Below, in pieces: positions 4,431 through 10,901 of a DNA stretch of 12,203 nt. Location of the stretch: NCBI GenBank assembly GCA_029932715.1, contig JAOZPO010000001.1:9738-21940 (forward strand). The letters are read 5' to 3'. The DNA is from Halobacteria archaeon. Its GTDB lineage: Archaea; Halobacteriota; Syntropharchaeia; Alkanophagales; Methanospirareceae. Positions within the stretch are counted from its first letter, which is position 1, and each line of letters opens with the position of its first letter. Under the pieces are notes generated by a model, which ran no database searches, was not told where the DNA came from, and saw nothing but the letters and a program-made list of their open reading frames with translations. The translations under genes were made by a program, and so were the position numbers.

Positions 4431-5051
4431 TCACATGTCCGTAAACTTGCCTTCTTCTATTTCCCTGAGGGCTTTCTTCACTTTACTCACGATTTCATCA
4501 AGCTTCTGCTGTGGAACACTCTCACGCCGCACAATGCCGGTTACGAGATCCACAAGTACACCCTGCGTCTCTCCTTTTTTATTCCTCGTGCTCACTCCAA
4601 TTGCCTCAAAATCCTCAAGCACAACGGGACATTGACAGAGAACAATTGACGGTATTTTCACCTTCCTCAACACAAATCTGACTTTGTATATGAAATGTTC
4701 CCTTACGTTTCCATGATGTTCTATGAGAAGCTTATGTCTCCCAATTGTTTCTACTTCGCTGGGCAACAATCCGAAAGCTACTCCATGTCCACCTCCGGAA
4801 GGGGCATCAACCGGTGTGCCATCTCCTGCATTCAGTATTATTTCGCCTATGTTTACGCCTTTGTCCCTTAATTCCGTGGTCACCTCACATACTGGTTTCG
4901 GTACATGCCGGGGACCTGGAGACATTGCAGCCGCAATTACATCGTTCCGCCATGCTTTTGCAAATGTACCCCTCTGTGCAATCCCGCCTCCTAATCCCAG
5001 TGCTTGCCCTTTTCTGCATGCTACCAACTGCGTATCTCTACCAACTGCCAT
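4431..5051 (-). CDS. mcrC: Methyl-coenzyme M reductase operon protein C (MCR activation component)
   Basis: This 206-residue protein matches McrC across its length (members are around 200 residues). Diagnostic stretches are LGLGGGIAQRGTF (18-30), AMSPGPRHVPKPVCE (42-56), LNAGDGTPVDAPSGGG (73-88), the LCQCPVVLEDFEAIGV segment (138-153) and a C-terminal PQQKLDEIVSKVKKAL (180-195). McrC is known from purified MCR activation fractions, where it works with AtwA and methanogenesis marker proteins to deliver electrons that reduce F430 nickel in MCR; it is cytoplasmic. The start ATG 5051-5049 is preceded by AGGATG. It is the last gene of the atwA2-atwA1-mcrC set, 33 bp behind atwA1. It lies apart from any mcrBGA genes in this window, as expected in lineages whose mcr operon lacks the C gene. 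Confidence 0.93.
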   Translation of the reverse strand: MAVGRDTQLVACRKGQALGLGGGIAQRGTFAKAWRNDVIAAAMSPGPRHVPKPVCEVTTELRDKGVNIGEIILNAGDGTPVDAPSGGGHGVAFGLLPSEVETIGRHKLLIEHHGNVREHFIYKVRFVLRKVKIPSIVLCQCPVVLEDFEAIGVSTRNKKGETQGVLVDLVTGIVRRESVPQQKLDEIVSKVKKALREIEEGKFTDM

Positions 5052-5084: not shown

Positions 5085-6683
5085 TTAAGCAGCTCTTAAA
5101 TCCTCTAATTTCGTTATTTTGCCGTTCTGCATGTGTGCTACTCTATCACAGACCATATCAACAAAATCGGTATCATGGGAGACGATCAAGAATGTAATGC
5201 CCAAATTCTCCCGTGCTACTCGTATAGAATCCGCAACATATCTCTTCGTTATCGGGTCCATTGTACCGGTTGGCTCATCAAGTATGGCTATTGCCGGCTC
5301 CTTCATCAACACCTGAGCGATAACTATCCTCTGCCTTTCACCTGCACTTAGTTGCGTATGCTCTTTAGGAAGGATCTCCTCTGCTTCCTCTTCGCTAAAC
5401 CCTACTCCTTCTAATATAAACTTTACTTTTATCCGTGCAAGCTCTTCAGGTACCTTCACGCCTATGCAACTTGTAAGATTCTCTAACACCGTCTTCTCGG
5501 GATACAGGGAATATTCCTGATGTAACATAGCCACGTGTGTCGCCGCTTGCTCGCCCACTCCGGGGGTAGTCGCACTCCATGCAATCCACACACCTGTTTC
5601 CGCTACCCGTGACACATCAATCCATTTTTCGCCTGCTCTTATCTTAACCGAACCACCGGTCACAGGATCTATTTGTGTTATAATCCGTGCTAAGCTCGTT
5701 TTACCCGAGCCACTTACTCCTAATAGCCCAAATATCTCGTTCTCATTTATTGTTAGCGAGACATCATCCACTGCCTTCACCATCCCGCGCCATACAGAGT
5801 AGTAGTATTTCTTACAATGCTCTATGCTTATCTTTGGCTCCCCTATTTTCTTATACTCTTCACGCTCCAGGGTCCCAACTTGCTTCTCAAATTCTTCTAC
5901 TACCTCTTTTGAATCTCCATATTTCACCATCTCTCCATGGTCAAGCCATAATGTCTTTTCTGTTAGTTCGTCAATCACGTAAGGCCAGTGAGAAGTAACA
6001 ACCATAGCCATTCCTTCCTTTGTGCTGTCTATAAGCGCTTTGTGCACGAGCTTTGCCGTCTCATAATCTAACGTACCCGTAGGCTCGTCAGCTAACAACA
6101 ACATAGGGTCTAAAGCAAGTTGTCTCGCGAGCACTACCCTCTGTTTCTCGCCACCGCTAAGGTCACTCGCTGGGAATGTAATTCGATGTATCATTTTCAC
6201 TGCCTTCAGCAGATCATAAGCTCTCCTAAATCTCTTATCCTTTGGATATTTTCTGCTTTCCAATGCCTGTAATACGTTATACATAACTGTATCATCACCG
6301 TATAGCCCAAAAGTACGCTGTAGCATGATAGCGACACTTTTTCTCACTTTCTTCCTCGCTTCGTTATCCTGCCAGTAATTTATCTCCTTCAATTCCAGCT
6401 CTGTTCCACACTTGATACACGCTTCTCCTGCTTTACTCGGCATCCCGACCCATCCACATGATGGGCACATTGCCACTCTGAAGATTATCTCTCCAGAGGT
6501 AGGAGCGTATTCCTCTGTACCCCTTAGCATGTGAAGTAAAGCGGATTTACCCGATCCGCTCTTCCCGAGCAGCCCTAACGACTTTCCTTCTTCTACATTC
6601 ACACTTACGTTCTTCAGAACCTCTTTGCCATCGAATTCCTTGCATATATCACGGATTTCCAAGAATGGCTCCTTTTCACCCAT
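5085..6683 (-). CDS. atwA: Methyl-coenzyme M reductase system component A2, copy 1 (twin ABC ATPase)
   Basis: This 532-residue soluble ABC protein has two ATPase domains and no membrane segments. Domain 1: Walker A GKSGSGKS (40-47), signature LSGGE (175-179), Walker B ending Asp199-Glu200, switch His232. A zinc-ribbon insertion sits between Walker A and the signature (Cys73-x2-Cys76 and Cys89-x2-Cys92), a hallmark of component A2. Domain 2: Walker A GVSGSGKT (322-329), signature LSAGE (445-449), Walker B AIAILDE (464-470), switch His503. All catalytic residues are intact, so both sites should hydrolyse ATP. A2 couples ATP hydrolysis to reductive activation of MCR-bound F430. The ATG at 6683 has GGGAG and AAAGGA stretches just upstream. 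It lies 52 bp after its paralogue and 33 bp before mcrC, probably on one transcript. Domain 2 differs from copy 2 between Walker A and the LHQEYSL motif. Confidence 0.95.
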
Positions 6684-6735
6684 TTTTCCTTTCTCCCTTT
6701 TTCATATCAATATCAATGAGCAATGATCTATCGAT

Positions 6736-8337
6736 TTATTGCTCCCTCAAATCCTCTATCTCCGTTACTTTTCCCATATCCATCTTCGCTATCCTATCAC
6801 ATACCTTCTCAGCGAATTCAAGATCATGCGTAACAATCACGAAAGTAATGCCCAAATTCTCTCTCGCACGTATTATCGTCTCTCCAACATATTTCTTCGT
6901 TACCGGGTCCATTGTACCCGTTGGTTCATCAAGAACTGCAATATTAGGCTCTTTCATTAATAACTGCGCAATCAATATCCGCTGTTTCTCACCTACGCTT
7001 AGCTCCTGATGCGATTTTGGTAGTATCTCCGCTATTTCGTCATCAGCGAAGCCCACACCGTTAAGTACGAACTTTACCTTCATCTTTGCCAGGTCTTCTG
7101 ACATATTTAGACCTATACCGTGCGTGAGGTTATCCCAAACTGAGAGTTTTGGTATCAACGAGTATTCTTGATGTAACGTACCCACAAAATAATCTTTCCA
7201 CTCGGTCGTGCCACCTTGAATTACGCCATCCTTTACGAAAGTGCCAGAATCTTCCTTTGACGCCTCATACCACCTATCGCCGACTCTTACCCACACCGTA
7301 CCACCGGAACCAGCATCTAAATGACTTACAATCCGCATTAAACTCGTCTTTCCCGCACCGCTATGCCCCACGACCCCAAATATCTCGTGTTCATTTATAT
7401 CAAACGAAACATCATCCACTGCCTTTACCACTCCTCGCGATGCAGAGAGATAATACTTCTTAAGTCTTTCTATCCTTATCACCGGATCACCGAATTTTTT
7501 ATACTCCTCTCGCTCTATTTCCCCTACTTCCTTCTCAAAATCCGAGACCACCTTCTCCGTATCGCCATATTCAACTATTTCACCCTTATCGAACCATACC
7601 GCTTCTTCTGTCAGGTCTCTAATCACATAGGGCCAGTGAGAAGTAACGAGGAACGTTGTTCCTCCCCGTGTCGTATCTACCAGTGCACGATGTACCACCT
7701 TTGCCGTCACGTGGTCTAACGTACCAGTGGGCTCATCGGCTAAAAGTAGAATTGGTGCCAGTGCCAACTGCCTCGCAAGCACCATTCTCTGCTTCTCGCC
7801 ACCACTGAGGTCCCTCGTGTCCGGCATATTTACACGGTGTAGCATCTTTACCGATTCCAGAATCTCATATACCTTCTTCATCCTTTTACTTTTTGGGTAT
7901 TTTGAACGTTCCAACGCCTCTAAAATGTTCCAGATGACACTCTCATCACTGTATAGGGCGAAACTACGCTGTAGCATAATAGCAATTGCACTCTTTAATG
8001 TCCGCTTCATATCCATATCTTGCCAGAAATTTACCTCCTTAAACTCAAATTCCGTACCACACTTAGGACACTTCTCTCCTACCCTGCTTGGTCCTTCTAT
8101 CCATGTACATGTGGGGCAATACGCCAGCCGGAATATGACTTCGCCGCTATCCGGTGCATACTCGTCCGTACCCCGGAGCATACGAAGTAATACTGATTTT
8201 CCAGCTCCGCTCTTTCCTAATAGCCCTAAGGGCTCCAGCTCTTTTATATCCAGACTCACGTTCTTCAATACCACTTTATCCTCGAATTTCTTGCTCACGT
8301 TCCGAACTTCTATAAACGTCTCCTTCTCTCCGTCCAT
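6736..8337 (-). CDS. atwA: Methyl-coenzyme M reductase system component A2, copy 2 (twin ABC ATPase)
   Basis: This 533-residue paralogue of the next gene has the same architecture. Domain 1: Walker A GKSGAGKS (41-48), zinc-ribbon cysteines 74, 77, 90 and 93, signature LSGGE (177-181), Walker B ending Asp201-Glu202. Domain 2: Walker A GHSGAGKT (324-331), signature LSVGE (446-450), Walker B NIAVLDE, switch His504. No catalytic residue is missing, so it is not a decayed copy. It leads the probable operon; the ATG at 8337 follows AAGGGG closely. The role is ATP-dependent activation of MCR, as for any A2. Two copies in tandem imply either dosage or division of labour, for example different MCR forms or partners; the sequence alone cannot separate these. 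The nearly equal length and colinearity point to an old duplication with later divergence. Confidence 0.95.
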   Translation of the reverse strand: MDGEKETFIEVRNVSKKFEDKVVLKNVSLDIKELEPLGLLGKSGAGKSVLLRMLRGTDEYAPDSGEVIFRLAYCPTCTWIEGPSRVGEKCPKCGTEFEFKEVNFWQDMDMKRTLKSAIAIMLQRSFALYSDESVIWNILEALERSKYPKSKRMKKVYEILESVKMLHRVNMPDTRDLSGGEKQRMVLARQLALAPILLLADEPTGTLDHVTAKVVHRALVDTTRGGTTFLVTSHWPYVIRDLTEEAVWFDKGEIVEYGDTEKVVSDFEKEVGEIEREEYKKFGDPVIRIERLKKYYLSASRGVVKAVDDVSFDINEHEIFGVVGHSGAGKTSLMRIVSHLDAGSGGTVWVRVGDRWYEASKEDSGTFVKDGVIQGGTTEWKDYFVGTLHQEYSLIPKLSVWDNLTHGIGLNMSEDLAKMKVKFVLNGVGFADDEIAEILPKSHQELSVGEKQRILIAQLLMKEPNIAVLDEPTGTMDPVTKKYVGETIIRARENLGITFVIVTHDLEFAEKVCDRIAKMDMGKVTEIEDLREQ

Positions 8338-8521: not shown

Positions 8522-8890
8522 TCACCGTCTCTTCTTTAACACCACTATATCTGGTCTCGGAGAAGCTTTAGAACCTGCAAACTCACGTTTGCAATGCTCA
8601 CATAATTCCCGCGCTGTAAGCGTAACGACTTCTTCCGATCCCGGCAACTTCCTCGCGTAGATAAACTCTGGCTCTACTCCCACTGATTTACTTAACTCGC
8701 TCAGTATTGTCACTATCTTCTCTTTAAACACATCCACATCTTCGCCCTGCAGCCCTCTCAGATCAGCAGCGAAGCCAATACAGCCGCATGCCATCCCAAA
8801 TACTTTCGCCTCTGGTACGAATATGTTCCCTACTAAAGTCCTCAGCCCTTCCTCGAGCCTTCGCCTGCTCTCTCTTATTTCCCCCTTCAC
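8522..8890 (-). CDS. Uncharacterised 122-residue CxC/CxxC protein
   Basis: I do not recognise this small soluble protein. It starts with GTG (8890-8888) inside the stop of the upstream U32 gene (GTGA overlap), so its translation is probably coupled to it. Visible features are an amphipathic charged N-terminus (MKGEIRESRRRLEEGL), a Cys-Gly-Cys at 35-37 in the motif FGMACGCIGFAADL, a helical middle (about 50-72), and Cys97-x2-Cys100 with His99 between them in LCEHCKREF. The two cysteine pairs could together bind zinc or an iron-sulfur cluster, or act as redox pairs. The C-terminus is basic. Position as third gene behind two U32 proteins suggests it is a partner or substrate-handling subunit, comparable in position only to UbiT beside UbiU/UbiV; no sequence likeness to UbiT is claimed. 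A methanogen/ANME-specific protein is likely. Confidence 0.75.
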   Translation of the reverse strand: MKGEIRESRRRLEEGLRTLVGNIFVPEAKVFGMACGCIGFAADLRGLQGEDVDVFKEKIVTILSELSKSVGVEPEFIYARKLPGSEEVVTLTARELCEHCKREFAGSKASPRPDIVVLKKRR

Positions 8891-9897
8891 TTTTCTATCA
8901 CCTTCAATACCTTACTCGTTAGTTCATCGCAATAGTGACATTCGTTACATATCTTATTGCAGCTCTTCCATTTGTTTATACTGCCATCCAGGAGTGCATT
9001 ATCCACGTAAAACATATATCTGAGTTCAGAAGGGCAATCAAGAACTTCAAGCAGGTTCCCCTTGAGCTCCCTGTGGTGATATGCTTCCATGCAATTTAAT
9101 ATCCAGCTCACTGCATTTGCCCTACCCGACATTTTGAAATTATCAATGCCTATCGCCTCATACTCCTTCAAGTCCTCGGGTCTTATCCAGGGCGACAGTA
9201 TAATTTGCGCGGGGTCTCGTACTCTGATGGATATGCACTTATCGAAATAGTAATCACCAAAGGTGCTCTGGGGTTGCGGGGATAATGCACGAGAAGCAGT
9301 TATATGAGAGAATAAGTTAAAATGCGCATGTCTGAACGGGCATTTGTACAGGCAACCTTCATTTACTATCAGCCTGAGATCGCAGTGAACTGCTTTCTTT
9401 ATCGCTTCCAACATTTCAAAATCCCTGTTTATGTTCGTATCTACGGTAATTGAATCTGCACCAAGCATCTCGAAGAACTCAGCACGTTGTGGTGAATCAA
9501 CATGCGCCACGCAAGAGATGACGGTCTGCAGCGAGTTTTCTCGTAAAAGTTCAACAAGATACGGCTCTGCCACCGTAACACCGTCAACTCCTGCTTTATC
9601 CAGTTCGTTGAAATACCATTTAAACGTCTTGTAAGCATGGTAAGTCAAATGGTAGCCGCCCAAGCAGGAGGCATTCATTACGACATTCAGCTTTACGTTA
9701 TGCTGATGTGCATAAGCAGTTTGCTCCTTTATCTCATCAACAAGCGCGGCATGTAACGTCGCTCTTCCGCTGCCCATAATATCAGGCGAGCCTGCCATAT
9801 ATACCTCGCTAACGTCTTTCAGACCTTCGGATTCTTTATACTCCAGTATCTCTTTCAAAGCTGCGAAATGCCCTGGATGTGGTAATATCAGTCTCAT
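8887..9897 (-). CDS. U32-family iron-sulfur protein, copy 1
   Basis: This 336-residue protein belongs to the U32 ('peptidase U32') family. It opens with a TIM-barrel-like pattern (RLILPHPGHFAALKEIL; DGVTVAEPYLVELL at 105-118) and carries the family iron-sulfur motif in IVNEGCLYKCPFRHAHFN (Cys182, Cys186) with Cys221 in FDKC; Cys78 in NASCLGG may be the fourth ligand. Better-known relatives UbiU, UbiV, TrhP and RlhA act in oxygen-independent hydroxylation of quinone precursors or RNA, so protease activity should not be assumed. A further cluster, Cys313-x3-Cys317-x2-Cys320-x2-Cys323 at the C-terminus, could hold a second metal centre. The ATG overlaps the stop of its paralogue (ATGA), and its own stop overlaps the start of the 122-residue gene, so the three are coupled. 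Copy 2 is close in sequence and length, suggesting a heterodimer. The substrate is unknown. Confidence 0.9.
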   Translation of the reverse strand: MRLILPHPGHFAALKEILEYKESEGLKDVSEVYMAGSPDIMGSGRATLHAALVDEIKEQTAYAHQHNVKLNVVMNASCLGGYHLTYHAYKTFKWYFNELDKAGVDGVTVAEPYLVELLRENSLQTVISCVAHVDSPQRAEFFEMLGADSITVDTNINRDFEMLEAIKKAVHCDLRLIVNEGCLYKCPFRHAHFNLFSHITASRALSPQPQSTFGDYYFDKCISIRVRDPAQIILSPWIRPEDLKEYEAIGIDNFKMSGRANAVSWILNCMEAYHHRELKGNLLEVLDCPSELRYMFYVDNALLDGSINKWKSCNKICNECHYCDELTSKVLKVIEK

Positions 9898-10901
9898 TTT
9901 CTTATAACGGTTAAAGCATCCTTTGTAAGTTCATCACAATAACCACACTCGCCACAGACCTTCCGGCAGCGCTTCCAGTGTTCTATGGCACCGTCAAGCT
10001 TTTCATTGTCTATATAAAACATATACCTCAGCATTTGCGGGCAATCAAGGATTTCGAGCAGATTACCTCTGAACGAGCGGTGAGAATAGAACCTCATGCA
10101 GTCTATTATCCAATTCACCGCTTTCGTCCGTCCGGAAAGTTTGAAGTTCTTTATACCAATAGCTTCGTATTCCTTTATGTCTTCTGGTCTAATCCATCCG
10201 GACTTCAATATTTGCGTGGGGTCTCTCAATCGGATGTTTATGCACTTATCAAAATAGAAGTCAGGAGCGAACAGAGGGAAGCGAGGTTGGTTTAGACTGC
10301 TGAGATGCGATGCGAGATTGTAATGCGAATACCTGAAAGGGCACCGATACAAACATCCTTCATTCACAATCAGCTTAATTTCGCAGTTAACCGCCTTTAC
10401 TATCCCTTTTAATAGCTCAAAATGCCGGTTTATATTCGTGTCTATTGTTATCATGTCAGCACCGAGGTCTTCAAAGAATTTGGCTCGCTGTGGCGATTCG
10501 ACATAAGACAAAACAGACACGATGGTCTTCATAGGATAGTCACGCAGAAGCTCTACAAGGTACGGCTCCGCAACTATAACGCCATCAACTCCAGCCTTGT
10601 TCAATTCGTTAAAGTACCACGTGAACATCTTATAACCCTCAAAGCTCAGGTGTTGACCGCCAAGACATGTAGAATTCATCGCGATACTCAATCTTATACC
10701 GTGCTGATGCGCATATTCGGTCTGTTCCCGTATCTCTTCGATTAGTGGTGCATGCAACACGCCTCTCCCGCTTCCCATCACTTCCGGAGAGCCGCCCATG
10801 AAAACTTCTTCCACTTCATTCAAGCCCTCAGCTTCTTTTACTTCTAATATGTCCTTCAAAGCGGGAAAATGCCCTGGATGTGGGATTATTAATCTCGTCA
10901 T
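9894..10901 (-). CDS. U32-family iron-sulfur protein, copy 2
   Basis: This 335-residue paralogue heads the U32 operon. The start chosen is ATG 10901-10899 (MTRLIIPHPGHFPAL), which aligns exactly with the start of copy 1; the reading frame stays open upstream to 11246, but that part is antisense to the FrhB-like gene and resembles no U32 sequence. Key residues: Cys79 (NSTCLGG), Cys183 and Cys187 (NEGCLYRCPFR), Cys220 (FDKC), and a C-terminal Cys312-x3-Cys316-x2-Cys319-x2-Cys322 (RCRKVCGECGYC). Both cysteine sets are conserved between the copies, while the linker at about 197-215 varies. No Shine-Dalgarno is visible and a TATA box lies about 30 bp upstream, so the message may be nearly leaderless. 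As with copy 1, an oxygen-independent hydroxylase or other radical/redox modification role is inferred from the family, not shown. Confidence 0.9.
   Translation of the reverse strand: MTRLIIPHPGHFPALKDILEVKEAEGLNEVEEVFMGGSPEVMGSGRGVLHAPLIEEIREQTEYAHQHGIRLSIAMNSTCLGGQHLSFEGYKMFTWYFNELNKAGVDGVIVAEPYLVELLRDYPMKTIVSVLSYVESPQRAKFFEDLGADMITIDTNINRHFELLKGIVKAVNCEIKLIVNEGCLYRCPFRYSHYNLASHLSSLNQPRFPLFAPDFYFDKCINIRLRDPTQILKSGWIRPEDIKEYEAIGIKNFKLSGRTKAVNWIIDCMRFYSHRSFRGNLLEILDCPQMLRYMFYIDNEKLDGAIEHWKRCRKVCGECGYCDELTKDALTVIRK

Follow-up and report, generated by a model that had tools for sequence, protein, structure and literature searches.

Proteins of the U32 family (PF01136) can hydroxylate aromatic rings without O2. 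UbiU-UbiV of Escherichia coli hydroxylate ubiquinone, a small molecule, independently of O2. They are deep paralogues that hold one [4Fe-4S] cluster each, with CX6CX16CX38C or CXnCX12CX3C patterns (PMC6747719). TrhP and RlhA act on RNA, at tRNA U34 and 23S rRNA C2501, respectively, and are prephenate-dependent, with an essential Glu and two essential Cys (PMC6599085). O2-free aromatic hydroxylation is rare chemistry, and the hydroxytryptophan in methyl-coenzyme M reductase (MCR) of the anaerobic methanotrophic archaea (ANME) of groups 1 and 2 and of M. formicicus has no known enzyme in the account drawn upon (PMC7581889). Here we describe a U32 system in a 12,203-nucleotide stretch (the window; contig JAOZPO010000001.1, positions 9,738 to 21,940) of an assembly that is 86% complete and belongs to ANME-1, judging by the closest relatives that carry a name. 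The system comprises two U32 proteins, U32-a and U32-b (a and b), and a small protein of the DUF5402 family (PF17393). U32 with DUF5402 is a real, conserved and so far unnamed system, and both co-occurrence and gene order give good support to its link to MCR. The known MCR modification enzymes, which we take to be Mmp10, YcaO-TfuA, McmA and MgmA, are likewise dedicated archaeal enzymes acting on active-site McrA residues; by their descriptions they are set apart in that they methylate or thioamidate through other chemistries and do not add oxygen.

The U32-DUF5402 pair is a conserved unit

The three genes are co-directional on the minus strand. U32-a (9894..10901; 335 residues, ATG start) is followed by U32-b (8887..9897; 336 residues, ATG start) and by DUF5402 (8522..8890; 122 residues, GTG start, four invariant Cys). 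The stop of U32-a overlaps the start of U32-b in an ATGA (9894..9897), and the stop of U32-b overlaps the DUF5402 start in a GTGA (8887..8890). This arrangement, and the presence of two U32 paralogues, agree with an earlier sequence-only reading of the window. The two U32 proteins score 41.4 and 37.9 bits against PF01136 (cut-off 22.4), and the small protein scores 129.9 bits against PF17393 (cut-off 25). The U32 and DUF5402 searches gave 317 and 149 relatives, respectively, at E<=0.001, and all 30 U32 relatives checked (30/30) match PF01136 at E<=0.01. AlphaFold2 models have a mean pLDDT (predicted local distance difference test) of 90.4 for U32-a and 91.5 for DUF5402. On the basis of these relatives and confident models, all three are real genes. 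The predicted U32 fold is a TIM barrel that resembles the solved structure of Mk0906, and no PF01136 gene besides a and b was found in the assembly.

Like UbiU-UbiV, the window system has the U32 domain, two adjacent U32 genes and conserved Cys; the O2-independent ring hydroxylation of UbiU-UbiV is, for the window system, only proposed. Unlike that pair, a and b are 64% identical, differ in Cys pattern and carry an additional C-terminal CX3CX2CX2C, and their partner is DUF5402 rather than UbiT. The sequence-only reading had credited both proteins with the family iron-sulfur motif. However, CX6CX15-16C occurs in neither; it is found in E. coli UbiU, TrhP and RlhA, and is missing from E. coli UbiV too. 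What 30 U32 relatives share without exception is a set of eight other Cys (C78, C182, C186, C219, C311, C315, C318 and C321 in A5 numbering); in an earlier alignment, one further relative, P0113, lacks the equivalent of C186. With TrhP and RlhA the window proteins share the U32 domain and a Glu and two Cys near each other, and the prephenate dependence of those enzymes offers a model for the oxygen source. They differ in lacking CX6CX15C, in having DUF5402 and in scoring far below the NCBIfam cut-offs, and TrhP and RlhA are not confined to methane metabolism. Against the UbiU model (NF047963), U32-a reached only 15.3 bits (cut-off 440) and the best relative an E of 2.8e-7. Against the TrhP model (NF011996), the window proteins gave no match and 15/30 relatives matched weakly, the best at 1e-9, far below the cut-off. 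Neither these scores nor the U32 trees, which were quick and carry only SH-aLRT support (Shimodaira-Hasegawa-like approximate likelihood ratio test), place the window proteins firmly within any characterised U32 family; the tree with E. coli rows retained 94 of 132 rows after near-identical and short ones were dropped, and its E. coli branches are very long. Mk0906 of Methanopyrus kandleri (PDB 5d88) is a 254-residue chain in which the NE-x-C-x3-C motif is replaced, and M. kandleri does have at least a relative that lacks this motif.

We then surveyed draws of 392 genomes of the larger phylum and 151 Methanobacteriota, with genus names inferred from McrA unless a named record is cited. U32 (E<=1e-20) was found in 94, DUF5402 in 90 and mcrA (PF02249) in 217 of the 392. 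The ANME-1 family has U32, mostly in two copies, in 48/51 genomes and DUF5402 in 45/51. Outside it, U32 reaches E<=1e-100 in 43 genomes; DUF5402 is present in 43/43, which bears out the idea of a dedicated small partner, and mcrA or acrA in 43/43. This count leaves out G167, where only fragments remain, and G004 and G020, whose U32 is divergent and which have no DUF5402. Among the Methanobacteriota, 17 genomes have a U32 match at E<=1e-10 and just five at E<=1e-100. DUF5402 occurs in exactly those five and mcrA in 5/5, and one of their protein clusters is named Methanothermus fervidus (P0241). Outside ANME-1, divergent outliers aside, U32 is thus confined to mcrA-positive genomes; most mcrA-positive genomes (143 of 217, G167 and G020 not counted) lack it. 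Many ANME-1 records repeat the trio in the order a-b-DUF5402; outside ANME-1 only the pair of U32 and DUF5402 was seen. The U32-DUF5402 pair is a conserved unit.

Two variants of the unit were observed. In a Methanosarcinaceae locus (L233, in G167), U32 and DUF5402 remain only as fragments before mtrE, a decaying locus, and both genes are missing from G012 and G332, which belong to the same genus. Genomes of alkane-oxidiser type encode a DUF5402 fusion, a single protein of ~240-250 residues with two such domains (L153, L154, L088; G142 C36).

U32 loci adjoin MCR genes

Gene order was compared at 92 loci, comprising 80 named ones (the best 80 of 190 relatives) and 12 genome stretches, some of them the same contig (L088/L160, L105/L159). 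DUF5402 is present on 79/92, and on 77 it lies within 300 bases of U32 on the same strand. The usual ANME-1 order is U32a-U32b-DUF5402-AtwA(-AtwA)-McrC, and at 27/92 loci, all ANME-1, AtwA or McrC is co-directional and no more than 700 bases away. In one ANME-1 group, U32a precedes a methyltransferase gene and mcrB(GA) (L077, L078, L082, L085), and b stands with DUF5402, AtwA and McrC (L040, L041, L045). In another ANME-1 genome (G317), mcrBDGA, mtr, U32b, DUF5402, AtwA and McrC all fall within 19.5 kb. U32-DUF5402 lies 1.6-2.2 kb before mcrBDGA in Methanoperedens (L034, L035, L036) and in a locus of Methanoperedens type (L038); L037 and L157, also from Methanoperedens, do not show mcr, and a second pair in this genus is Methanosarcinales-like. 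The order in Methanoliparum is mcrBDCGA-U32-DUF5402 (L093; L094 is alike from mcrG onward). One genome (G082) has acrA-U32-DUF5402 (L155), and its three other U32 loci examined are not at acr. U32 therefore stands at an mcr or acr operon in four lineages, of Methanoperedens type, of Methanoliparum type, in one ANME-1 group and in G082. Since we estimate the chance of placement within 5 kb of mcr at ~1% for a genome of 1-3 Mb, this is unlikely by chance. Together with the near-confinement of the pair to mcrA-positive genomes outside ANME-1, this gene order upholds the link to MCR that had been drawn from the window.

Candidate role in MCR hydroxylation

Hydroxytryptophan is reported as 7-OH in ANME-1 and as 6-OH in ANME-2c, ANME-2d and M. 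formicicus (PMC9081873 Table 1, PMC12413448), at alpha-333 in ANME-1 and alpha-429 in M. formicicus (PMC9118554). The same sources, in the parts drawn upon, give it as absent from M. marburgensis, M. wolfeii, M. barkeri, M. acetivorans, M. kandleri (the source of Mk0906; Table 1 of PMC9081873), M. thermolithotrophicus, M. shengliensis and E. thermophilum (PMC9081873, PMC12413448). The genes are present where the residue is found in ANME-1 (L078, McrA close to 3SQG) and ANME-2d (L036, McrA close to 9QQT). Among the species reported to lack it, those covered here also lack the genes: U32 and DUF5402 were not found in eight Methanothermobacter-type genomes (G538-G545), including those of M. marburgensis (G538, McrA-II identical to 5A8R) and M. 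wolfeii (G545, McrA-I identical to 5A8K), and the pair was found in 0/15 Methanosarcina-type genomes (McrA 90-97% to 1E6Y). As controls, Methanosarcina hold other PF01136 proteins, and DUF5402 was detected in M. jannaschii, not in M. acetivorans. M. jannaschii is near kin of M. formicicus. Other modifications do not follow the gene pattern, because each of didehydroaspartate, S-methylcysteine, methylarginine and methylglutamine is present in species that lack the genes (our comparison with PMC9081873 Table 1). The hydroxytryptophan assignment is consistent with these data but under-sampled. Given the precedent of U32 enzymes that hydroxylate aromatic rings, we propose that U32-DUF5402 may be an O2-independent MCR/ACR hydroxylase whose product is most likely hydroxytryptophan in the MCR alpha subunit, a tentative reading from gene content and order to which we assign a probability of roughly 0.48.

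Several observations weigh against this proposal. The species comparison covers ANME-1, ANME-2d, M. marburgensis, M. wolfeii and Methanosarcina; its agreement comes from about four independent lineages and does not exclude two other genes with the same species set. Co-variation of the target Trp with U32 was sought and not found: MCRs conserve both Trp whether or not U32 is present, so the target sequence does not discriminate. The alpha-429 Trp is missing from the AcrAs of carriers, and from AcrAs either way, so in alkane oxidisers the modification would have to be at another site. Of 51 ANME-1 genomes, 32 gave a PF02249 match and 19, the window's own included, gave none; as these assemblies are incomplete, co-occurrence with mcrA is not judgeable in ANME-1. 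G004 carries its divergent U32 with neither mcrA nor DUF5402. As for gene order, 38/92 loci, many of them short contigs, lack mcr, mtr, AtwA and McrC markers, among them those of M. fervidus and the other Methanobacteria; the mcr-type U32 of G335 lies ~50 kb from mcrA; U32 and DUF5402 are on different contigs in Alkanophaga (L105, in G142) and in G118; and mtr adjoins as closely as mcr in several lineages.

In the proposed mechanism, U32 would be a hydroxylase built on a TIM barrel and holding one or two iron-sulfur clusters, as the predicted fold and the conserved Cys suggest. DUF5402, a U32 partner by co-occurrence and gene order, may be a docking or electron-transfer subunit. By analogy with TrhP, RlhA and UbiU-UbiV, U32 would hydroxylate an aromatic McrA residue before or during MCR assembly. 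The oxygen may come from prephenate or water, not O2, as TrhP and RlhA suggest. Chorismate mutase was found in 7/7 genomes tested, including that of the window, so prephenate can be made. If the proposal is correct, the genes for hydroxytryptophan would be named, DUF5402 would gain a role, and the reach of U32 enzymes would extend from RNA and quinones to proteins. The genes would also supply parts missing in heterologous expression of methane-oxidising MCR. The proposal predicts hydroxytryptophan in cultured Methanolobus, Methanococcoides and Methanothermus fervidus.

Other candidate substrates

RNA, Mtr and F430 are weaker candidates than MCR. The pair might hydroxylate a tRNA or rRNA base, with the placement at mcr and mtr reflecting the clustering of highly expressed genes. 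This fits the RNA substrates of TrhP and RlhA (PMC6599085), and one relative, P0037, is named by NCBI as an RlhA/YrrN/YrrO-type protein. We nevertheless consider it unlikely: presence is patchy and, outside ANME-1 and divergent outliers aside, confined to mcrA-positive archaea, U32 repeatedly adjoins mcr or acr, the TrhP scores are weak, and Methanosarcina manage without the pair. The sequence-only reading had held RNA to be equally open, which seems too generous given the gene order at mcr and mtr.

That gene order also brings in the methyltransferase Mtr or its cobamide as a possible substrate. U32-DUF5402 directly precedes mtrEDCBAFGH in Methanolobus, Methanococcoides and ANME-3 (8 loci), mtrH lies directly upstream of the system in several ANME-1 loci (L068, L071, L074, L076, L079, L080, L084), mtr is on 17/92 loci, and a CbiR-like TIM-barrel gene is divergent from U32 in Methanosarcinaceae. 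However, MtrD was detected in 1/10 genomes tried (G007) and in none of the carriers G082, G118, G142, G297 and G017, several of which are incomplete. This weakens Mtr as an obligate substrate. Since Methanosarcina also have Mtr without the pair, a role in Mtr modification appears quite improbable.

Duplication of U32 in ANME-1

The a and b proteins lie in ANME-1-only clades. The a copies form one clade of 29 rows (SH-aLRT 100); the b copies form one of 27 rows (SH-aLRT 96), plus Methanospirareceae b-type rows that were not resolved with the other b. Near-fixed differences separate a from b at 12 positions, and at 36, 194 and 197 b has the residue of all 15 other-lineage rows, indicating that a is the derived copy. 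Positions 194 and 197 adjoin the C183/C187 motif. After the duplication, b would have kept the states of other lineages and a would have diverged near NE-x-C-x3-C. The product of copy a may be 7-hydroxytryptophan, specific to ANME-1 (alpha-333 in 3SQG), or S-oxymethionine. A fuller version, which we hold to be possible rather than probable, is that these are the first protein-acting U32 enzymes, with a (moved to mcrBGA in one group) directed to 7-hydroxytryptophan-333 and b to another oxygenated residue, for example S-oxymethionine, or with these roles exchanged; a strict anaerobe would then decorate its methane-oxidising active site with oxygen drawn from prephenate or water.

The sequence-only reading had instead taken a and b as a heterodimer in the manner of UbiU-UbiV, with DUF5402 as its dedicated small subunit. 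The two genes are indeed tandem and translationally coupled in most Methanophagales-type loci. In contrast, G128 (Methanoxibalbensis) and G317 (AOM70-1) carry a and b at separate places, each with its own DUF5402, so that the unit is U32 with DUF5402; the ANME-1 group with U32a at mcr likewise has a away from b, and in most other lineages a single U32 accompanies each DUF5402. The separate loci argue against the a-b heterodimer as the general unit, and an obligate complex of a, b and DUF5402 is, in our estimate, very doubtful as an explanation; an a-b dimer in the window strain is possible.

Least probable of all is modification of F430 or another methanogenic coenzyme, which the small-molecule substrate of UbiU-UbiV (PMC6747719) and the joint occurrence of methylthio-F430 and two U32 copies in ANME-1 would favour, and which is disfavoured for a shared target because ANME-2d carries the pair and ANME-2 MCRs have canonical F430 in the part of the source drawn upon (PMC12413448), although one ANME-1 copy could act on F430.

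Neighbouring genes

The minus strand of the window reads U32-a, U32-b, DUF5402, two AtwA genes, an McrC-like gene and NrdD; an FrhB/FpoF-like gene is upstream of U32-a and divergent. As the sequence-only reading had it, the neighbours are MCR-activation genes. Both copies of AtwA, MCR component A2 (6736..8337, immediately downstream copy 1, and 5085..6683, the second copy, both minus strand), exceed the TIGR03269 cut-off, and the McrC-like protein (4431..5051, minus strand) exceeds that of TIGR03264; all three are conserved neighbours. The tandem AtwA proteins (5085-8337) have 532 and 533 residues. Several ANME-1 relatives have two copies and others one.

Directly upstream of mcrB, five ANME-1 loci (L077, L078 9060-9623, L082, L085 and L234 4307-4834) carry a gene for a class I S-adenosylmethionine methyltransferase. 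This enzyme is a candidate for an orphan MCR methylation, e.g. N1-methylhistidine or S-methylcysteine. An unnamed protein family (L092 14826-15392; L090 4534-5274) occurs in 31/80 named loci, near McrC or DUF5402 in ANME-1 and after mtrH in Methanolobus; it had no NCBIfam match and no Pfam match above the cut-off. The TIM barrel divergent from U32 in Methanosarcinaceae (L092 7089-7910, and others) is xylose-isomerase-like and weakly resembles the cobamide-remodelling CbiR. A record titled Candidatus Nitrosotalea (L081, DYFG01000125.1) holds a typical ANME-1 U32a-U32b-DUF5402-McrC locus and is probably a mis-binned contig. A GAF-domain protein adjoins DUF5402 (L120 679-1116, L124 696-1145, L036 9820-10266); its gene is convergent with DUF5402 in Methanothermobacter_A-type genomes and Methanothermus, and co-directional in Methanoperedens.

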